Positions 21,182-30,335 of a DNA stretch of 64,000 bases are shown here, piece by piece. The number at the start of each line of letters is the position of its first letter. Position 1 is the first letter of the stretch. A program made the position numbers and the translations under genes. This DNA is from Undibacterium hunanense (GTDB taxonomy: Bacteria; Pseudomonadota; Gammaproteobacteria; Burkholderiales; Burkholderiaceae_D), in the NCBI RefSeq assembly GCF_014284335.1, contig NZ_JACOGF010000005.1, positions 1-64,000 of the forward strand, written 5' to 3'. Under the pieces are notes generated by a model. That model had not been told where the DNA came from. It saw only the letters and a program-made list of their open reading frames with translations, and made no database searches.

Positions 21182-22093
21182 TTACATCCTGACCAGCGTA
21201 GATTTACCAAACAGGCTTTCGATCAGGTCCACAGCCAGTACGGCGGTCTGGTTGCGGATGTCCAGTGCCGGGTTCAGTTCGACCACGTCCAGCGATGCCA
21301 TCAAGCCGGTATCGGCTACCATTTCCATGCACAACTGCGCTTCGCGGTAGCTGGGGCCGCCCAGTACAGCGGTGCCGACGCCGGGGGCGATGCCGGGGTC
21401 GAGGCAGTCGAGGTCAAAGCTTACATGCAGGTGGGTATTGCTGTCCAGATTGGCCAGGGCCGAAGACATGACATTGCGCATGCCATATTCATCGATATAG
21501 CGCATATCGAATACCTGCATGCCCATTTCGTGGATGAAGCGTCGTTCACCATCGTCCACACTGCGTATGCCGATCAGGCGGATGTCGGTGGCTTGTATGG
21601 CTGGCGTATGGCCGGCATAATTGATCAACTCTTTCGGGCCATGACCCATCAGGCAGGCGACTGGCATGCCGTGGATATTGCCGGTGGGGCTGATGGTGGA
21701 CAGATTGCTGTCAGCATGGGCATCAAACCACAATACGCGCAGCTTTTTGCCCACGCGACGACAATGGGCGGCCACCGCGCTGATGGAACCTATCGCCAGA
21801 CAATGATCGCCACCCAGCATCATGGGCATGTGGCCGTCACGCAAGGCCTGGTCAACGGCGTCATACACTGCCTGGTTCCAGTCTATGGCTTCTTTCAGGT
21901 GACGCAGGCCGTTGACGGGTTGTTCCCATGGGTTGGCAGGACCATGCAGGTTGCCATGGTCGATGACTTTCAGGCCACGTGCCGTCAGGGCTTCGTTCAG
22001 GCCCGCCACACGCAATGCGTCGGGCCCCATGCCCGCGCCTCTGACGCTTGCGCCAACATCGGTTGGCGCCCCAATCAAGGAAATGGTTTTCAT
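21182..22093 (-). CDS. rocF: Arginase
   Basis: A 303-residue manganese enzyme splitting arginine to ornithine and urea. The metal-ligand motifs are all present: GGDHCLAIGS, WFDAHADSN and SFDLDCLDPGIAPGVG. The N-terminal IGAPTDVGASVRGAGMGPDALR and the SLDVVELNPALD end are typical. The gene follows ornithine cyclodeaminase by 32 bp on the same strand, so the two make a short arginine-to-proline route. Expression is likely governed by the divergent Lrp-type regulator at 23594. Confidence 0.95.
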   Translation of the reverse strand: MKTISLIGAPTDVGASVRGAGMGPDALRVAGLNEALTARGLKVIDHGNLHGPANPWEQPVNGLRHLKEAIDWNQAVYDAVDQALRDGHMPMMLGGDHCLAIGSISAVAAHCRRVGKKLRVLWFDAHADSNLSTISPTGNIHGMPVACLMGHGPKELINYAGHTPAIQATDIRLIGIRSVDDGERRFIHEMGMQVFDMRYIDEYGMRNVMSSALANLDSNTHLHVSFDLDCLDPGIAPGVGTAVLGGPSYREAQLCMEMVADTGLMASLDVVELNPALDIRNQTAVLAVDLIESLFGKSTLVRM

Positions 22094-22125
22094 TCTCTGG
22101 TTTCGTTCTTGCTATAGTGCCTGGA

Positions 22126-23199
22126 TCAGGCGTTTATCGGTACGGCATTTGCAGTTGTGCTGCGGGCCGGATTAGTCATTGTATTACCTGCCATTCCCAT
22201 GCCAAACAAATCTTTCGGGTTCATCATTTCGGGTATCAGATCGAGCACGGGTGAATTGGCATGCATCACATATTTTTCAAGATAGCGCATGGCAGAAAAA
22301 TCTTCCAGCGCAAAACCGACAGAATCAAATACCGTGACCTGTTCCGCATACGTGCGGCCAGATGCCTTGCCTGCGAGGATAGTCCACAATTCGGTTACCT
22401 GGAAATCTGCCGGCATTTGTTGCAATTCACCTTCTATCCTGGATTGCGGTTCATATTCAACCACGACATGGGCCTGATGCAAAATATCAGCGTGCAATTC
22501 GGTCTTGCCGGGGCAATCACCACCGACGCCATTGATGTGCATGCCTGGTTCTATCATGTCCGGTGTCAGTATGATGGCATTGGTTTTATCTGCCGTGACC
22601 GTGGTCACGATATCCGCACCCTTGACTGCTTCGGCAGTGGAACTGGCACGTACAACCCGCAATGCAGGATACATGCGCAAATTATGGATTAATTTGTCGG
22701 TTGCCGCAGGGTCGATGTCGTACACACGCAACTCGGTGATGCCCAGCATGGCATGAAACGCAATTGCCTGAAACTCGCTTTGCGCACCATTGCCAATCAG
22801 CGCCATGCTGCGGCTGTCTGGTCTGGCCATATAGGTAGCTGCCAGTGCCGAAGTGGCGGCGGTACGGATGGCGGTGGTCAATGTCAGTTCAGACAGCAGG
22901 TGAGGGTAGCCGGTACTGACATCGGCCAGCACGCCAAAGGCGGTGACCGTCAGCAATCCAGACTGGGTATTTTTGGGGTGGCCATTCACATATTTGAATG
23001 AATATTGTGTACCGTCGGAAATTGGCATCAATTCTATGACGCCCACGTCAGAATGATTGGCCACCCGCGCCGATTTGTCAAAAGCCTGCCAGCGTAAATA
23101 ATCTTCCTTGATCATACCGGCCAGACGTGTGATGGCGTCTTCAAGCCGGGTTTTTTTCAAATGGTTTTGCATTTCTTGCGTGCCGATGAAGGTCACCAT
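22126..23199 (-). CDS. ocd: Ornithine cyclodeaminase
   Basis: A 357-residue NAD-dependent enzyme of the ornithine cyclodeaminase/mu-crystallin family that converts ornithine directly to proline and ammonia. The nucleotide-binding segment MALIGNGAQSEFQAIAF (about residues 133-149), VYDIDPAATDKL and the substrate-site region NGVGGDCPGKTELH are visible. The long form with the SVGFALEDFSAMRYL end fits true Ocd rather than alanine dehydrogenase. It is first in the ocd-rocF operon. The leader contains a short palindrome (23224-23273). Confidence 0.93.
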   Translation of the reverse strand: MVTFIGTQEMQNHLKKTRLEDAITRLAGMIKEDYLRWQAFDKSARVANHSDVGVIELMPISDGTQYSFKYVNGHPKNTQSGLLTVTAFGVLADVSTGYPHLLSELTLTTAIRTAATSALAATYMARPDSRSMALIGNGAQSEFQAIAFHAMLGITELRVYDIDPAATDKLIHNLRMYPALRVVRASSTAEAVKGADIVTTVTADKTNAIILTPDMIEPGMHINGVGGDCPGKTELHADILHQAHVVVEYEPQSRIEGELQQMPADFQVTELWTILAGKASGRTYAEQVTVFDSVGFALEDFSAMRYLEKYVMHANSPVLDLIPEMMNPKDLFGMGMAGNTMTNPARSTTANAVPINA

Positions 23200-23223
23200 G
23201 ATGTTCTCCGTATGTTTTAAATA

Positions 23224-23273
23224 CCGGACTCAGGCAAAGCTGCCTTGCTGAGGCAATTTTTGCGTAAGTCCGG
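23224..23273. repeat. Short palindrome related to the cadR-side element
   Basis: The ends ccggact (23224-23230) and agtccgg (23267-23273) are inverted. The right half caatttttgcgtaagtcc is nearly identical to the right end of the element at 19488-19584 (one extra T). It lies 25 bp upstream of the ocd start codon and would form a hairpin in its leader. Confidence 0.6.
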
Positions 23274-23593
23274 GTGGACTGGCGGGAACACATTTGAGAG
23301 GCTATTGCGAAATCACCCTGGTTTTCCTGATGTTGCGAGACTTCCAAGTTGTTCCTTCCAGGAAGGACAAAGCTTGTTGAAATCCACCAGACCCATTTCG
23401 CATCAGGCTCTTATGCACCTGTTGTGCTATGTATTCTGTTATCCATTGTAGCCAGCGGCAGCAAGAATTAGATTGCTAAATAAGATGTAAATTTCATGTA
23501 AATAGAAATTTAATTTCATATTTAAGAAAATTATGTGTTTAAATTTCTTATATATTGAAATTGGTAAAATATACCGAAAATCGGGAGTTTAAA
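23274..23593. promoter_or_regulatory. Divergent promoter region ocd / Lrp-type regulator
   Basis: No gene is present. Positions 23484-23570 are very AT-rich, with several aaattt/gaaatt half sites in alternating orientation (tttcatgtaaat, agaaatttaatttcat, gtttaaatttc). This is the kind of curved, AT-rich operator bound by Lrp/AsnC octamers. The remainder toward ocd shows nothing I can name. Confidence 0.5.
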
Positions 23594-24049
23594 ATGGACG
23601 TATATGACCGCAGTATCCTGCGTCATCTGCAACAAGATGGTCGTATGAGTAATTTAAGCCTGGCTGAGCGCATTCATCTGTCTGCACCACAGACCTTGCG
23701 GCGTGTCAGGATGCTGGAAGAAAAAGCTGTGATACGCGCCTATGTCGCCCAGGTGGCGCCGGAAGCATTGGGCCTGGGCGTCATGGCTTTTGTGAACCTG
23801 TCACTGGACCGTGAACAGTTCCGCAATGTGCGCGAGGTAGAACGTCAGTTGAAGGCATTCCCTCAAATCATAGAATGCCACACCATTTCAGGCGACTTTG
23901 ATTACATATTGAAGGTGGTTGCCAGTGACCTGAAAAATTTGTCGCAATTCCTGACGGACACGCTGATGCAGGTGCCGGGTGTGGCATCTTTAAGGTCGAT
24001 GATTTGCATGGAAGAAATCAAGCCGGTCAGTGGTTTGCCGATAGAGTGA
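23594..24049 (+). CDS. Lrp/AsnC-family transcriptional regulator
   Basis: A 151-residue regulator: an N-terminal AsnC helix-turn-helix (DRSILRHLQQDGRMSNLSLAERIHLSAPQTLRRVRMLEE) followed by a RAM/ligand-binding domain (about residues 65-140; HTISGDFDYILKVVASDL). I start it at 23594, where a cgggag ribosome site is well placed, rather than the earlier in-frame codon at 23555. It is divergent from ocd-rocF and probably controls that operon in response to arginine, ornithine or proline. That is inference from position. Confidence 0.92.
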   Translation: MDVYDRSILRHLQQDGRMSNLSLAERIHLSAPQTLRRVRMLEEKAVIRAYVAQVAPEALGLGVMAFVNLSLDREQFRNVREVERQLKAFPQIIECHTISGDFDYILKVVASDLKNLSQFLTDTLMQVPGVASLRSMICMEEIKPVSGLPIE

Positions 24050-24073
24050 TTATCTAATATCGAGGAATCGAGT

Positions 24074-24105
24074 AAAATAAGGTGTTATTTTGTTATTTTT
24101 CTTGA
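24074..24105 (+). terminator. Weak terminator-like hairpin after the Lrp-type gene
   Basis: aaaataa (24074-24080) and ttatttt (24085-24091) form a 7-bp all-A/T stem with a 4-base loop, followed by T-rich sequence. The stem is weak, so termination would be partial at best. It marks the border to the AT-rich operon that follows. Confidence 0.35.
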
Positions 24106-24122
24106 TTTGCTAAGGGGGCTAT

Positions 24123-25379
24123 ATGCTTGAAAATTTCACGGGTTTTACTGTAGAAAACTATCGGGCTTTCGCCCGAGAGCAGAACATTGAAATACGTCCC
24201 CTTACTCTTTTCTTTGGTTGGAACAGCGGAGGTAAAAGCGCTTTAATACGTTTTTTGCCACTTCTTGTCGAGTCAATCAAAGCAAACGGGCCTCCAATCT
24301 GGTTAGCTGGCGAAGTTGGTCGTGATTCCACTTGGCCGGAATTGGTTTGTAAATCAACTCAGCGCTCGAATCTTAAATTTGGCTTGAATGGCTCGTCCAA
24401 GGATGAAGTCTTTACAATTAAATGGGACGTAAACGGAGATTTAGCAGGTAAATGGCAAGATACTCAGTCAATATCGTTCAATAGCAGACAAGTTCAATCC
24501 AACAAATCTTTTGGCATTTTATATCAAACGAATTTTGATACGCTTAGAAAGCAAAGCTCTTTTGAGTGGGAGGGATATGCTCCGTCCCCCAATTTACCTG
24601 AGATGGCAGCAGATGCGAATAAAGAAATATTATTGCTAAATCAGCACCTAAAATCTTTTCTTATGCCGCTTTTGTCAAACGTTCAATGGGTAAGCGGTGT
24701 CCGTGCACGTCCACAACGTCTGGTGACGTATGGCGGAGGAAACTCTCCGACATTAAAGCCAGATGGGAGCAACGCGGCAAATCACCTGATAGAGGCTATG
24801 CTTCATAGCACAACTGATCCAGTTCTGGAAGAAACTCGAGAATTCTTTTCTGCTCTAGGGGAACAATTAGTATTAGACAATCCAATGGACGGTGCATGGC
24901 GTGTGATGTTAAGGCCATTAGACTCTCCAGATGTCAAAGTAAACCTTTGTGATACCGGAGAAGGCTACGCACAAGTTTTACCTGTACTTGTCGCATTAGC
25001 AAGAGCGAAATTTGGCGGGCCTAACCTCCTTTGTCTGGAGCAACCAGAGTTGCACCTGCATACACGCGCACAAGCTGAATTGGCAAAAATCTTAGTTAAT
25101 ACAGTAAACTCAAGTAGTAGGCCCACAGTACTAATGGAGACGCACTCTGAGGTTTTATTGACCAGCATTCAACTCGCGATCGCCAATAAAGAAATTAGTG
25201 AAAAAATGGTACGAGTATATTGGGTCGAATCTCGCGCTGACGGCACAAGTGACGTTCTACCCGTCGACTTTGATCCCCAAGGACAACCCACGAACACAAC
25301 CTTAGTTGATGCATTCAGTGATGCCAGCGATTTAGGACGTAAACTCCTGCGTAAACAATTAGCGAGTCAGCCATCGTGA
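24123..25379 (+). CDS. AAA/ABC-like ATPase (DUF3696-type), candidate defence ATPase
   Basis: A 418-residue ATPase of the OLD/RecF-like AAA_15 group. Walker A is GWNSGGKS (residues 32-39) and the signature-like loop is DTGEGYAQVLP (about 275-285). Walker B is LLCLEQPELHLH (about 300-311), with the H-switch METHSE (about 338-343). The C-terminal part (VRVYWVESRADGTSDVLPVDFDPQG) resembles the DUF3696 tail. It has a good ribosome site (aaggggg). The stop codon overlaps the next start (GTGA), so it is coupled to the TOPRIM-like gene. Codon use is AT-rich, unlike its neighbours. It is probably the sensor or energy module of a defence system (inference from family and context). Confidence 0.85.
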   Translation: MLENFTGFTVENYRAFAREQNIEIRPLTLFFGWNSGGKSALIRFLPLLVESIKANGPPIWLAGEVGRDSTWPELVCKSTQRSNLKFGLNGSSKDEVFTIKWDVNGDLAGKWQDTQSISFNSRQVQSNKSFGILYQTNFDTLRKQSSFEWEGYAPSPNLPEMAADANKEILLLNQHLKSFLMPLLSNVQWVSGVRARPQRLVTYGGGNSPTLKPDGSNAANHLIEAMLHSTTDPVLEETREFFSALGEQLVLDNPMDGAWRVMLRPLDSPDVKVNLCDTGEGYAQVLPVLVALARAKFGGPNLLCLEQPELHLHTRAQAELAKILVNTVNSSSRPTVLMETHSEVLLTSIQLAIANKEISEKMVRVYWVESRADGTSDVLPVDFDPQGQPTNTTLVDAFSDASDLGRKLLRKQLASQPS

Positions 25380-26392
25380 AAGTGATTATTTCTGAAGAAC
25401 TTGTTGCGGCATCTATAAATCCATCACAAATATTGTTATTTCATCAGCTTATTGCTATTGCAACTCAAGGAAGCCAGCATTTTTTGTTTTTTGAAACTGA
25501 TAACGCTATAGAGCTAGCGGTACAGGGATATGCACAAAATTTGCAGCCGCTATATAAAAAATTCTTTCTTGATTCATATAGAGAGGCAGCAACTTATCCT
25601 AGTGAAAGAGCGGCAATAAAGATCGATCTAGTTGGTAGTTCGCAATGGGATATCCCAATTCCAGTCGTAACCTTGAATGATGCATTAAAAGTACTTACTG
25701 AAAAGCTTGTAATATTGCTTGAAAATGCTGAGAACGATTGGTACTTCCTATTGGGAATTATGAACTCCCGTGATCGTGCACGAATGTGCGATTACGTGGC
25801 AAAAGGGTGGGCGGAGCCCGGGCACGGTGGAGGGGATACTCTTGGAATGATTATGGATAATAGAATCCAACATCACTGGAAAGCACTCCGGACATTTGTG
25901 ATTTTTGATAGTGATCGTTTACATCCAGATGAGTTTGATGAAAATTGGACACCCGTTAGGCAAGGACAACAACCTTCCAGTTGTAATGCTTATGAGTGGG
26001 AAGTTACCGCAAAACAGTTTCTTGCAAACAGATATTGGATGCTGAGCCGTCGTTTCATAGAGTCATATATGCCTCAGAACGAACTGACATTGGCAACTGC
26101 AGCTAAACCTTGTCAAGACGCCATCGCAGCGCTATTTTCGATGAGTAATGAGCAAAGATGGCATTACAATATGAAAGCCGGATTTATCAAAGACGGTAGT
26201 CGCCACGATATCGAGCGATGTAAAAACTTATACGATAATCTCACACCTGAAAAAAAACAAATTCTTGCTAATGGCTTTGGGCGGACGTTGGCAAAGCATT
26301 ATAAAAATTCAATAACAAGCCAATTTACTTGGGACGCAGAGGCGTTAGCTGAAGCTAACAGTGTGCTCCCCAAACTTCTTAATATGCTTTAA
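25376..26392 (+). CDS. Unknown protein with TOPRIM-like motifs, candidate effector
   Basis: A 338-residue protein of no family I can name with certainty. The start codon is GTG and overlaps the ATPase stop. Three features recall TOPRIM nucleases and the DUF4435 partner of PARIS ATPases. They are Glu116 in VILLENAENDWYFLL, the acidic pair Asp178/Asp180 at the end of a beta-strand (TFVIFDSDR), and RRFIESYMP (225-233), similar to the R-x-x-I-E-x-Y motif that follows DxD in those proteins. A Gly-rich loop (GHGGGD, 149-154) lies between. If correct, it would be a metal-dependent nuclease effector triggered by the ATPase. This is a motif-level inference, and another fold is possible. Confidence 0.6.
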   Translation: MKVIISEELVAASINPSQILLFHQLIAIATQGSQHFLFFETDNAIELAVQGYAQNLQPLYKKFFLDSYREAATYPSERAAIKIDLVGSSQWDIPIPVVTLNDALKVLTEKLVILLENAENDWYFLLGIMNSRDRARMCDYVAKGWAEPGHGGGDTLGMIMDNRIQHHWKALRTFVIFDSDRLHPDEFDENWTPVRQGQQPSSCNAYEWEVTAKQFLANRYWMLSRRFIESYMPQNELTLATAAKPCQDAIAALFSMSNEQRWHYNMKAGFIKDGSRHDIERCKNLYDNLTPEKKQILANGFGRTLAKHYKNSITSQFTWDAEALAEANSVLPKLLNML

Positions 26393-26404
26393 AAGAGATT
26401 ATTT

Positions 26405-28066
26405 ATGTCAGATTCACTTACTTCACTTGCTTCCGAAAATTTAAACCCTAGCTTGCGGAGTTTGTTGGAGGACGTGCAACGAGGACACATTCGGGTTCCG
26501 AGATTTCAAAGACCTTTTGTATGGAAGGACCAGCAACGGTTGCAATTGCTAGAATCAATTCGAGACAATATGCCTATTGGTAGTTTATTGGTTTGGAGTA
26601 CAGCTCAATTTGAACTAGCGTCTTTTCCTACGATAGGCCCTCATATAATTCCTGAGCTCAACGAAACACTTACATTACGTGGTCGACAATATCTTTTAGA
26701 TGGACATCAACGAGTTTCGACGCTGCTTGGTGTCTTATTAGCACCACTATCTAGTTCGACGGTCGTTGGCGAAGAAGAGGAAGACAGTATTGACTGGGAC
26801 ATTCAATACGACCTCATGGATCAAGATTTTGTATTCGTTAATCGGCCAAAGAAAATTACGGAAAGTAGGCCACTGCTACCACTCTCTACACTATTTGATG
26901 GGCGGATGGTGAATCGCCACATGCGAGGAATGCGTGAATTAGGGAAACAGAAGAATTGGAACGAATCTGACTTTGAGATTTGGGAAGAAAGAGCTGATCA
27001 GCTATCGTATCGATTCCAACAATATAGAATTCCGATAGTTGTGATGGTCACGGATGACTTAGATTTAGCTGCGAGGACATTCCAGAGAATTAATAGTCAG
27101 GGTACTCCGATGGGAGAGGCGCATCTTGTGGCTGCTCTTACTTGGACTTCCAAGTTTGATCTTAGAGAGAGACTAGCATCGCTCCGTGAGAATTTTCCAC
27201 TGGGATGGCGTGATCTAGATGACCATATTTTTTTACAAGTTTGTAAAGGTTTGATTACCCCAGACATATCTAAAATCGACGAGACAGAATTAATTCAAAA
27301 TATAAGAGAAGATAATGATCTATTAAACAGAGCTGCAGCTGGATTAAATGCAGCGATAAATCTGTTGATTAACCGAATGGGTGTGGTTCGACAAGACTTG
27401 TTACCTTATGCACCACAATTGGTGTTCTTATCAGTTGAGTATGCGCGTCGTGGCGACGCGGCAATTCCAGAACATGCATTTGTCCATTGGTTTTGGAGAA
27501 CAGGGTGCGTTGAGGTTTTTGGCAGTGGATCATTTAGGCAAGTTAGAACTGAGCAAGAAAAGTTGCGAAACATTAGTTTTTTAAGTGAACTTGAGTATTG
27601 GGATGAAAACTTGGTTTTACGTAATCGTTTCGACTCAAGATTTGCTCGGATTCGTGTTTGGATGTTAAGAATGGCTGCGCGCAAAGATTTAGTCGATGAA
27701 AATGGTATCAGTGTTGACGGTAAGGCACTACTAGCATCATACGGAAAAGAGGCATTTACAAAATTATTTACAACTCCAGCAGGAGCTTCAACAAACCTTC
27801 GGGCTTTGCTTCAAACTCTAGGTAATCGTGTATTTATTGACGCTTCTAAATTAAAAGCAATGCGCAATTCTTTGCGAGAAAATTCAGATATTCCTCAGTC
27901 TTTTCTGGATAGCCATTTAATCACTCATAAAGCATTGTCTGCATTGCGCGCAGGAAATTTAGAAGGCTTTATTCAAGCACGAAACGTAACAATTGCTGAA
28001 TGGGATAAGGCAGATTGGAAAGACGAGAGACGAGCAATGAACCAAGCCAAAATCGATTTTAGTTAG
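26405..28066 (+). CDS. DUF262 (GmrSD N-domain-like) protein, candidate defence component
   Basis: A 553-residue DUF262 protein. The ParB-like core is clear: VPRFQRPFVWKDQQRLQLLESI (about residues 31-52), IGSLLVW (58-64), the nucleotide-binding motif LLDGHQRVSTLLG (97-109) and FQRINSQGTPMGEAHLVAAL (about 225-245). I see no HNH/DUF1524 nuclease motif, so it is not a full GmrSD restriction enzyme. DUF262 proteins bind and hydrolyse nucleotides and recur in phage-defence loci. It starts 12 bp after the TOPRIM-like gene, so the three genes form one operon. It shares their AT-rich codon use. Confidence 0.85.
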   Translation: MSDSLTSLASENLNPSLRSLLEDVQRGHIRVPRFQRPFVWKDQQRLQLLESIRDNMPIGSLLVWSTAQFELASFPTIGPHIIPELNETLTLRGRQYLLDGHQRVSTLLGVLLAPLSSSTVVGEEEEDSIDWDIQYDLMDQDFVFVNRPKKITESRPLLPLSTLFDGRMVNRHMRGMRELGKQKNWNESDFEIWEERADQLSYRFQQYRIPIVVMVTDDLDLAARTFQRINSQGTPMGEAHLVAALTWTSKFDLRERLASLRENFPLGWRDLDDHIFLQVCKGLITPDISKIDETELIQNIREDNDLLNRAAAGLNAAINLLINRMGVVRQDLLPYAPQLVFLSVEYARRGDAAIPEHAFVHWFWRTGCVEVFGSGSFRQVRTEQEKLRNISFLSELEYWDENLVLRNRFDSRFARIRVWMLRMAARKDLVDENGISVDGKALLASYGKEAFTKLFTTPAGASTNLRALLQTLGNRVFIDASKLKAMRNSLRENSDIPQSFLDSHLITHKALSALRAGNLEGFIQARNVTIAEWDKADWKDERRAMNQAKIDFS

Positions 28067-28322
28067 TGGAATCGAAGCTATCTCTTATTTGTCTTTTCTA
28101 TCCATATTTGTGGCAGATTTTCCTAAGTTAGGTCCTCAGCATGAGGTCATTTTCGGATTTTTTTCCAAAATACAGATTTAATCGACGGAGATGCCACAGA
28201 TGGATTTGCAGTTATACCATTTGAAGTAAGAATTGCCACGGTGAATTTTACCTTGGGTATGAACCATGCAATTGCTAGTTGCATGGTCCTAACCCTGGTC
28301 GCTAAAACGACAACAGTCAAGT
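28067..28322. other. AT-rich gap with a perfect 9-bp hairpin
   Basis: No credible gene. Arms 28263-28271 (accatgcaa) and 28279-28287 (ttgcatggt) pair perfectly around a 7-base loop. There is no U-tract on either strand, so it is not a standard terminator. It lies between the convergent DUF262 gene and the PHP-hydrolase gene and may mark the right border of the acquired segment. Confidence 0.5.
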
Positions 28323-29969
28323 CTAATTCACGCTCACAAAGACGGGATTGGAATAGAACCACAGGCTGGCGTAGTTGCGCTCATTGATCTGGTTATGGCG
28401 TGTTGGATTGTCCGCTGTCGTGATTTTTGCATCAGCCAAAGGTTCACCATTGTCTGTCAGGTCTGCGACGTTGATACCCAGGTTGGTGCCACGCAGACGC
28501 AGGTACTGGTTTTTCTGCACGAGCATCTGGTACTTGATGACATTGTAACCATCGGCATCTGTTTTCCAGTCGGCACTGGTGAAGCGTTTCAAGACCTTGG
28601 TGCTGGAGTTGGTCGCCACATTGTAGGCGCTGGAATCCGGTGCTGCTTTGGCGCCAACATCACCGACGATCAAATCCACATGATCCACTTTCGGTGCCTT
28701 GTTGCCGGATACGCCACTACCCACGGGAAATTCATAATTGTTCCTGACAGGGCTTTTGAAACGTATGGTGACATCAACCGTGCTGCCGTTTGCTACCTTC
28801 AGTTCTTGTCCCATGTTTTTGACATCGCTGGCATTGTTGACATTGCTGACGGTGAATTCCATGGCATTGATGAGATCACCAAAGACACTGAATGATCTTC
28901 CTGACTGCAGGCTCTTGATCAGTTCATTGACGCCAGCTTTCTTGTCGTTCATCCACACATAGTTTTTGGCGTATTCGCCTGGGAAGTAACCACTGCTATT
29001 GCCTGCGTCATCGATTTTGAAATGCGAGTCAGAATCGGCAATATTCCAGATGCGGCGACCCTCGCCCAGCAAGGCATCCCAGACCCCACCCACCTGTGCA
29101 ACGACGGCATCAACACCACCATACACACGATTTGGTTTGTTGGCATCAATGTAGCTGGAGGTATAACCGCCACGATCAGGTTCCATCTGGTTGCCGACCA
29201 TGCCTTCTATCGAGAACATGATGTTGGGTGCCATATCATTCATTGTGCGGAAATCGGCAATCGTGTATTTGCCAGGATTGCGCGAAGGATGGTTGATGGT
29301 GATAAAGCTGGTGTCGGGATAATTTTTCTTCAACCAGGACACTGCCTGCAGGGCATCTGCCGCCGTGCTGTTGAAACGTTGCGGATATTTCGCTTTCCAT
29401 TTGCTGACATCGGCAGCGTCAAACTTGCTGTCTTCCAGGGTGGTGAACAAATATTGAAATTCCTTGGCCGCTGATGCTGATGAAATCAGTTTGCCATCTG
29501 CAACATCAAAAATGCTGACACCCAAGTGATCATGCGTGGGCATATCCCATTCAAAACCGGAGAAGATGGTTTTGTCTGCATAACGACCAGACGCTTGCAA
29601 GGCCTTGATCCTGGGAATTTCATATGACTCCATGCCGTACGCAAAAGGCACGGGGTTTGCCAGCAGGGCACCGTTATTGTCGTATTTTGAAGAACGCAGG
29701 TGATTGGTGATGGCGGTCCAGTCCAGGCCATAGCTGGTAAATGCTTTGTCCAGCACCGTATCCAGTGTTTGTGTTGTCCGCGCATCGTCGGATTGTATGG
29801 TGTGCACATGCAAGTCACCGGTCGTCCATCCGCCCTGTGACGTGACTGGCAAATTCGGGTTGAGTGCTTGCGAGGCATTGTCAGAAGAACTGCCACAGCC
29901 ATGCAGCAAGAAGACGGCAGAAGGAACAGCACAGGAAATGGCAATCAAACTCAAAAAACGGGGGCGCAT
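28323..29969 (-). CDS. PHP-domain metallohydrolase lipoprotein (CehA/McbA-like)
   Basis: A 548-residue exported protein. The signal peptide ends in a lipobox (FLLHGC, Cys about residue 24), giving a lipoprotein. The mature part begins with a PHP-type metal motif GDLHVHTIQSDDA and a second motif, AITNHLR. Further His/Asp clusters (DMPTHDHLGV, TINHPSRNPGKY, ADSDSHFKID) are consistent with a metal-dependent phosphoesterase or amidohydrolase of the CehA/McbA family. The natural substrate is unknown. I start it at 29969, after AAAAAAGGA with a six-base spacer, and not at the ATG eight codons upstream. It stands alone, with AT-rich DNA on both sides. Confidence 0.78.
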   Translation of the reverse strand: MRPRFLSLIAISCAVPSAVFLLHGCGSSSDNASQALNPNLPVTSQGGWTTGDLHVHTIQSDDARTTQTLDTVLDKAFTSYGLDWTAITNHLRSSKYDNNGALLANPVPFAYGMESYEIPRIKALQASGRYADKTIFSGFEWDMPTHDHLGVSIFDVADGKLISSASAAKEFQYLFTTLEDSKFDAADVSKWKAKYPQRFNSTAADALQAVSWLKKNYPDTSFITINHPSRNPGKYTIADFRTMNDMAPNIMFSIEGMVGNQMEPDRGGYTSSYIDANKPNRVYGGVDAVVAQVGGVWDALLGEGRRIWNIADSDSHFKIDDAGNSSGYFPGEYAKNYVWMNDKKAGVNELIKSLQSGRSFSVFGDLINAMEFTVSNVNNASDVKNMGQELKVANGSTVDVTIRFKSPVRNNYEFPVGSGVSGNKAPKVDHVDLIVGDVGAKAAPDSSAYNVATNSSTKVLKRFTSADWKTDADGYNVIKYQMLVQKNQYLRLRGTNLGINVADLTDNGEPLADAKITTADNPTRHNQINERNYASLWFYSNPVFVSVN

Positions 29970-30335
29970 GGGAAATCCTTTTTTCTGATGCAATTAATTT
30001 TCATATATACGCAATATAAATATGCAATATAAATATATTTGTAGTATATGAATGCATTGTAAAGGATGACTGTGACGTCAGAATTACAATCGATTTCATC
30101 GAAGTCTGCATTCAGCAGTAAGCATCAATGAATAGGGAATGTGTGCTGAGAAACAAGCGCTGTTTGGATGCACGAAGTGCGAATGAATGCCCAATAGGGG
30201 GTGCTGATGCAGTTTTATGTCGAGCGGGGATTGTCGCGCAGGCTGGGCTTAATGTCGTCAGCGATGAAATACGAGTCGTGTCTGTCGGCTAGCGCCATCC
30301 GCCACGACTCGTCAAAGGTATTGCTAATGTATTAC
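29970..30335. other. Intergenic region with a 13-bp direct repeat and an inverted repeat
   Basis: No supported gene. Positions 30011-30036 are two perfect copies of gcaatataaatat, inside the likely promoter of the PHP hydrolase (minus). Arms 30271-30280 (acgagtcgtg) and 30303-30312 (cacgactcgt) form a 10-bp inverted repeat with a 22-base loop, 24 bp past the stop of the small gene at 30336. This could be a factor-independent 3' end structure without a strong U-tract. Confidence 0.5.

Follow-up and report, generated by a model that had tools for sequence, protein, structure and literature searches.

Introduction

Gabija (GajA/GajB) and the class 1 OLD proteins combine an OLD-type ATPase with an OLD-type TOPRIM domain, and PARIS employs AriA and AriB. 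Another set of systems uses the DUF262 domain, which has a ParB/Srx-type fold. GmrSD, BrxU and SspE carry DUF262 together with DUF1524 and act on or recognise modified DNA, and Menshen, Dazbog and PD-T4-2 are presented with a DUF262 that lacks DUF1524 (as described in PMC10952713). PDC-M55, a candidate of PADLOC-DB 2.0.0, carries no description in its PADLOC entry; the related preprint is that of Payne et al. (2024), as cited in PMC12988326, and the name 'PDC-M55' was not found in the literature searched.

Here we analysed three consecutive genes, A, B and C (Table 1), in a 64,000-nucleotide stretch of the Undibacterium hunanense genome, hereafter the window. The original prediction, a defence-type operon following the logic of PARIS, OLD and Gabija, fits an OLD/AriA-like ATPase, a TOPRIM-like B and a DUF262 protein. 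The operon shares the OLD-type ATPase and the OLD-type TOPRIM with Gabija and class 1 OLD, but splits them over two genes, and has DUF262 in place of the UvrD-like helicase of Gabija, no helicase being found among A, B and C. It differs from PARIS by its third gene, DUF262, and by an extra N-terminal domain on B, whose fold is closer to that of OLD.

Table 1. Features of the operon and its surroundings (positions in the window)
Feature	Position	Strand	Remarks
Segment, probably acquired	24050..28323		low G+C and synteny break; between Lrp and CehA/McbA-like genes
Gene A, OLD/AriA/NsnB-type ABC ATPase (PDC-M55A)	24123..25379	+	418 aa, ATG start
Gene B, putative TOPRIM nuclease with extra N-terminal domain (PDC-M55B)	25376..26392	+	338 aa, GTG start
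GTGA, B start over A stop	25376..25379	+	translational coupling; from ORF coordinates
N-terminal domain of B	25376..25699	+	residues 1-108; fold weakly PIN-like or kinase-like
TOPRIM domain of B	25691..26389	+	residues about 106-338; invariant E116, D121, D178, D180, R226, E229, K267
Gene C, DUF262/GmrSD_N protein (PDC-M55C)	26405..28066	+	553 aa, ATG start; DGHQR; C-terminal half without assigned fold

Three linked genes in a low G+C segment

The tight packing and linkage that had been predicted for the three genes, a GTGA overlap followed by a 12-base spacing between B and C, were borne out by the ORF coordinates. Of the 18 operons listed, 14 show a four-base NTGA overlap with the starts as set in this analysis (13/17 without L084, a repeat of the Azospirillum operon in L005). 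The 1-kb windows starting at 23500-27500 have a G+C content of 0.403-0.435, as compared with 0.484-0.579 further out, with transition windows of 0.458 and 0.464. Synteny with two other genomes (G018 and G026) breaks off at 24049-24050, where the Lrp gene ends (24049), and picks up again at 28324; the segment stands in place of three genes. The CehA/McbA-like gene on the far side (28323-29993, minus strand) scores 63.4 bits in NCBIfam, under its cut-off of 80. The nearest neighbours of the operon in the window contain no defence genes by Pfam and NCBIfam. No RNA family reached its gathering score within 23400-28500; promoter-like sites were fewer than in shuffled sequence (5, against a mean of 10.1), and terminator-like sites about equal (4, against 3.4).

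Assignment to PDC-M55

The PDC-M55A, PDC-M55B and PDC-M55C models match A, B and C in order and orientation, with E-values of 1.2e-49, 2.6e-28 and 2.1e-71, as compared with 1.1e-181, 1.6e-119 and 5.5e-254 for the Nonomuraea trio. By these model matches, we assign the operon to PDC-M55 as a divergent member. It had been left undecided whether this was a divergent known type or a new arrangement, and the former describes it.

The resemblance to Menshen (NsnABC), which had also been raised, lies in the NsnB-like ATPase and the DUF262 protein. The NsnB model indeed matches A at 6.9e-35, and the NsnA model matches C weakly (4.7e-9, residues 11-61 only), which would suit a genuine Menshen whose genes are permuted. 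However, the PDC-M55 models outscore the Nsn models for all three proteins, and B matches no NsnC model in PADLOC at E<=1 and gives an unconvincing BLAST E-value of 0.13 to the NsnC of the same genome. That genome already has a separate, typical Menshen system (L052, 5713-9110) in the order DUF262-ATPase-NsnC, as opposed to the ATPase-TOPRIM-DUF262 order of the window. Since the third component, NsnC, is missing, we reject the Menshen identity, and a permuted Menshen is very improbable.

Gene A encodes an OLD-type ATPase

The PDC-M55A match covers residues 8-389 of A, and the AriA model also matches (2.6e-18), as do AAA_15 (2.3e-17) and AAA_21 (3.6e-10) among the Pfam families at E<=1. The OLD-like ATPase foreseen in the original prediction is confirmed. 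Among the motifs GWNSGGKS, LLCLEQPELHL and METHSE, we take the first to be Walker A, whose lysine is K38, and the second to be Walker B; both are present in all 12 A proteins compared. The DUF3696-like tail did not hold in the form proposed. DUF3696 is not among the Pfam matches of A at E<=1, whereas the true NsnB elsewhere in the genome matches it at 6.4e-12. The remoter A relatives of L060, L068 and L069 end in a WPEGVF-like stretch that aligns with the tail of A, and the term is therefore fair by alignment only.

Gene B encodes a putative TOPRIM nuclease

B has no Pfam match at E<=1, its sequence alone finds no PDB chain at E<=10, and its profile finds four unrelated PDB matches and no TOPRIM chain. 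In the fold comparison, however, the best 17 matches are all OLD, PARIS or Gabija proteins, and the predicted TOPRIM character of the middle protein therefore holds by fold and not by sequence. The seven residues given in Table 1 are invariant in 52/52 B sequences, which comprise P. yeei and the 51 rows of alignment A1 (made without 4 length outliers of the 55 B relatives and without P0001, the duplicate of the window). The same residues are invariant in all 18 operons aligned, the B of L071 lying outside the alignment. The fold, together with the invariant E116, D178 and D180, which are putative metal-binding residues, marks B as an OLD-type TOPRIM protein. This assignment of PDC-M55B was made in the present analysis, and we claim no priority over the preprint.

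Alternatively, the system may work in the manner of PARIS: A would sense a phage protein, B would be a tRNase released as a dimer, and C would be a mere accessory or guard. We consider this scheme possible but less likely.

Gene C encodes a DUF262 protein

The DUF262 assignment of the third protein was correct, as C matches GmrSD_N/DUF262 (PF03235) at 1.9e-24 (87.3 bits, cut-off 33.2). Its profile matches the DUF262 protein of PDB entry 7p9k, which we take to be BrxU, at 1.6e-9 over residues 16-107 only. For alignment A2, the sequence of the window was combined with 33 C relatives taken from the 120 listed. DGHQR or DGQQR is present in C of 17 of the 18 operons, namely all those whose C is uncut.

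This conserved motif and the likeness to GmrSD, BrxU and SspE, which share PF03235, suggest that C could itself be the effector or the main recogniser, acting on modified DNA, with A and B as regulators. But C differs from those proteins in having no DUF1524 at Pfam E<=1, nothing in the PDB matches its C-terminal half at an E-value below 0.057, and the invariant acidic residues sit in B; we regard this scheme as improbable. C may have a nucleotide-sensing role, as had been suggested.

Fourteen remoter C loci were opened via C (5 of 42 records, all 3 foreign matches and 6 regions); 4 have A and B adjacent and 10 do not, and C thus has a life outside the trio. In a Magnetococcales genome the C-terminus of DUF262 is fused to a TIR-NB-ARC-WD40 (Apaf-1-like) chain, and in Pandoraea to a carboxypeptidase-regulatory-like stretch.

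Distribution and genomic neighbourhood

All 11 loci reached via B in named genomes have A, B and C in the same order (in L003 the contig stops within C), and this identity of order places the three-gene layout far beyond chance. The trio spans Pseudomonadota and Actinomycetota, including Nonomuraea, and second copies (L068, L069 and L071) occur in three of the trio-bearing genomes. It is also found on the P. yeei plasmid pYEE5, on Leclercia pYUSHP29-2, adjoining a recombinase gene, and in a P2-like provirus (L085) between gpA (phrog_91) and portal (phrog_68), where the PDC-M55B match begins only at residue 91. The place between gpA and portal corresponds to the cos-proximal old/tin hotspot, as described in PMC9122126. 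The trio is nevertheless rare: in a class sample of 369 genomes, with at most five candidates scored per genome, only the genome of the window has it, and within the genus 1 of 35 other members does. The provirus trio has no relatives in E. coli genomes, its B has none in phage records, and the B of the window has none on plasmids at E<=1e-5.

Known defence systems (CBASS, ietAS, AbiE and PifA/PD-T4-3) flank 4 of the 11 loci. The scan covered the 115 flanking ORFs that encode 150 aa or more (E<=1e-15; 25 of 65 families listed), with an additional scan of 10 hand-picked ORFs from 4/11 loci. Ten control regions of 15 kb, drawn from six of these contigs (93 ORFs, E<=1e-15), were positive as well, with RT, Ppl, HEC-01A, GajA and mad3 among the 25 of 58 families listed. 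Defence-island enrichment is therefore suggestive at most, as the comparison is of families rather than members, with 25 listed on each side, and we do not claim it.

The rarity of the trio and its carriage by plasmids and a provirus would also suit a role other than defence, as an addiction module of a plasmid or phage or as a complex for DNA repair. However, the provirus trio sits at the old/tin hotspot, relatives adjoin CBASS, ietAS and AbiE, no small antitoxin-like partner was noticed by eye, and L011 has a TIR-NB-ARC-WD40 fusion, all of which make a non-defence function improbable.

A proposed split OLD-like nuclease

We propose, with a probability of roughly 0.6, that the operon encodes a mobile three-subunit anti-phage system of the PDC-M55 type, working as a split OLD-like nuclease. 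In this system, the ABC-type ATPase A would be the scaffold and switch, with which B, a two-metal TOPRIM nuclease effector, would be held inactive. C would bind nucleotide and/or invading nucleic acid through DUF262 and provide recognition. Upon infection, the A-C module would shift its state and license or release B, which would cut nucleic acid, either tRNA like AriB or DNA like OLD, and the phage cycle would be stopped. Complex formation, the identity of the sensing subunit, the substrate, the abortive outcome and defence itself are what we infer here. More tentatively, the DUF262 protein may be an obligate NTP-binding third partner of ParB fold that gates the TOPRIM effector throughout PDC-M55, with recognition that could be rewired by modules fused to its C-terminus. 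If so, DUF262 would be a general plug-in sensor linking OLD nucleases to NLR-type immunity.

Our analysis gives the bare PDC-M55 entry a candidate effector of TOPRIM fold, in which the conserved residues are specified, draws its boundary against Menshen, and extends its range over two phyla, plasmids and a provirus hotspot. It also raises the question of what DUF262 does with no DUF1524 nuclease attached, the answer to which would bear on Menshen, Dazbog and PD-T4-2.

Covariation of the three genes

The distances of A, B and C are correlated over 12 operons (Mantel r 0.87-0.91, or 0.62-0.77 once P. yeei is dropped; 0/2000 permutations); L003 was left out for its cut C, and the C sequences of L011 and L012 were shortened. 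Swapping of the middle gene was considered because C has 351 relatives and B has 55, the window's own included; no trio without a B homologue came to light, but most trios were found via B, and some swapping may occur. In 10 of the 11 operons compared with the window, conservation is lowest for B; in P. yeei it is lowest for A.

Assignment of the operon

The three open reading frames for an OLD/AriA/NsnB-type ABC ATPase (A), a putative TOPRIM nuclease (B) and a DUF262 protein (C) form a genuine operon, and their coordinates, with the overlap and the gap, agree exactly with the original prediction. All three match, in the same order, the models of PDC-M55, a candidate type of PADLOC-DB 2.0.0, and on these matches the operon is best described as a divergent member of that already listed type. 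The proposal of a defence operon of either a known type or a new arrangement therefore stands in its first form and falls in its second, and an anti-phage role is most likely, as a candidate function.

Coordinates of the operon and of the features compared with it
Feature	Sequence	Position	Strand	Remark
A	window	24123-25379	+	PDC-M55A, 1.2e-49
B	window	25376-26392	+	PDC-M55B, 2.6e-28; GTGA overlap with A
C	window	26405-28066	+	PDC-M55C, 2.1e-71; 12-base gap after B
Amino-acid catabolism cluster	window	21182-24049		arginase-like gene (by eye), ornithine cyclodeaminase, Lrp
Menshen (G000:C25)	L052	5713-9110		NsnA 1.6e-142, NsnB 5e-107, NsnC 2.7e-57
Shortened second A-B-C set	L068	852-2794		Magnetococcales
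B gene with apparent IS1	NZ_MH909329.1	101537-103252		Leclercia plasmid
C fusion	L011	11021-16267		Magnetococcales MAG; 1748 aa
Extended C	L012	11006-13171		Pandoraea
DUF262 + HipA-family	L062	3983-6852		HipA annotated
DUF262 + HipA-family	L073	4031-6931		by eye

At E<=1, Pfam finds AAA_15/AAA_21 in A, with AAA_23 under its cut-off, and GmrSD_N (DUF262) in C, where DUF1524 is absent; B has no Pfam family at this threshold, and its TOPRIM reading comes from fold comparison. The DUF3696 tail proposed for A found no Pfam match at E<=1, whereas the Menshen NsnB of the same genome does match DUF3696.

A possible resemblance to Menshen (NsnABC) had also been raised. The same genome encodes a separate, typical Menshen in the order NsnA-NsnB-NsnC, which served as an internal comparison; TonB-receptor, FecR-like and sigma-factor-like genes (by eye) lie upstream of it. 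At E<=1, none of the NsnC models picks up B, and the best BLAST E value of B against the resident NsnC is 0.13. A and the resident NsnB are alike only in local stretches, one of 90 residues (34%, E 4e-12) and a weaker N-terminal one. We thus rejected a Menshen identity for the trio. Nor is it PARIS as known, which consists of AriA and AriB (PMC12409363); Gabija is described as an ATPase fused to TOPRIM, plus a UvrD-like protein (PMC10952713).

The name PDC-M55 was not mentioned in the literature searched. PDC systems are regarded as guilt-by-embedding candidates that lack validation (PMC12988326, PMC10855318), and PMC12409345 reports no evidence of defence for PDC-M63AB and PDC-S04 in a native host, which calls for caution in reading PDC-M55 as defence. 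The present work adds the TOPRIM assignment of B, which we do not claim as the first in print, a relative in the P2 hotspot and the separation from Menshen.

Conservation of the trio

The three genes occur together elsewhere: A, B and C lie in the same order on one strand in 11/11 loci from one scan of genome contigs with a B alignment, C of L003 being cut by the contig end. The hosts are an Oxalobacteraceae member, Janthinobacterium, two Magnetococcales, Azospirillum, a Chromatiaceae member, two Pseudomonas, a Burkholderiales MAG, Undibacterium and Pandoraea. A further trio was found in Nonomuraea, and three genomes already in the set hold second copies (L068, L069, L071). The shortened set in L068 lies upstream of a full one and is perhaps decaying. 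A and B share an NTGA overlap in 14 of 18 operons; L084 duplicates the Azospirillum operon of L005, and leaving it out gives 13 of 17. Across operons, the three genes have correlated pairwise distances (r 0.87-0.91; 12 operons, L003 left out), with r 0.62-0.77 once P. yeei is dropped. The gene least identical to that of the window is B in 10 of 11 operons and A in P. yeei.

Loci in which C stands without A and B count against a fixed unit. Fourteen remoter loci (L060-L073) were opened because of C (5 of 42 records, 3 of 3 foreign matches and 6 regions of another search); ten have no A and B within the stretches fetched, and four (L060, L068, L069, L071) do. Two other C matches of the search with 42 records (Leclercia, Nonomuraea) turned out to belong to trios once their loci were opened through B or A.

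Probable insertion site

B is rare among the genomes searched. B was found in 1/35 other genus members, in 0/24 other members of the order searched and, in a class sample with at most five candidates scored per genome, in 1/369, the window's own genome. In 1-kb windows, operon G+C is 0.403-0.435 vs 0.484-0.579 further out; the windows at the transition have 0.458 and 0.464.

Two sister species (G018, G026) are colinear with both flanks; their alignments end at 24049-24050 and restart at 28324, and between these points they carry different DNA, 3088 bases in G018 and 3056 in G026. This block encodes a double-receiver regulator, an HDOD/HD-GYP-like protein and a LysE-type exporter (named by eye), and the same three genes follow Lrp in two more sister species (G031, G034). 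A DNA search for them in the window's genome gave one 234-base match of 67% and nothing more. Judging by the colinear flanks and this near-absence, the operon apparently took the place of a resident three-gene block (24050-28323, compared with L035, L036, L037 and L038). Pfam and NCBIfam place no defence or integrase gene among the flanking ornithine cyclodeaminase, Lrp and CehA/McbA-like genes. An amino-acid catabolism cluster adjoins the insert.

Defence neighbours and mobile elements

Homologues lie near defence genes in single examples, with no enrichment claimed. Known systems flank 4/11 loci, namely CBASS (L007), ietAS with PDC-S01 (L006), AbiE (L009) and PifA-like with PD-T4-3-like genes (L002); ten control regions also matched defence models, and we therefore claim association by example.

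Several relatives lie on mobile elements. The P. yeei trio lies on plasmid pYEE5, and that of Leclercia on the conjugative plasmid pYUSHP29-2, adjoining a tyrosine recombinase gene; in the match listing, an IS1 element apparently lies within a Leclercia plasmid B gene. Integrase genes or fragments are present in L005, L008, L010 and L012. A provirus trio (L085) has the P2-type replication gene A on one side (phrog_91, E 9.4e-280) and the portal gene on the other (phrog_68, E 8.4e-164), surrounded by integrase, terminase, scaffold and capsid genes; the PDC-M55B match of its B covers residues 91-313, with the N-terminal part outside. This gpA-gpQ interval is described as the P2 hotspot; besides old and tin it holds further systems, of which several proved active when tested (PMC9122126).

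Proposed mechanism and fusions of C

OLD, Gabija and PARIS each pair an ABC ATPase with a TOPRIM nuclease whose target is DNA or tRNA (PMC10568477, PMC12409363). The DUF262 of GmrSD, BrxU and SspE is linked to binding or hydrolysis of NTP; in SspE, recognising modified DNA sets off this activity and switches on the attached nuclease (PMC10952713). From these roles we propose that A would act as the switch, B as the effector and C as a nucleotide- or nucleic-acid-dependent recogniser.

In a Magnetococcales MAG, C runs on in one frame into TIR (E 2.7e-4), Apaf-1-like NB-ARC (7.5e-14) and WD40 repeats, a fusion that may be an assembly effect. The Pandoraea C carries an extra C-terminal stretch, carboxypeptidase-regulatory-like (PF13620, 21.6 bits, below the cut-off of 32.3). 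Together, these extensions suggest that the C-terminal end of C acquires sensor or effector modules. The Pandoraea locus also holds a Zot-family gene, and at two remote loci a DUF262 gene forms a two-gene unit with a HipA-family gene.
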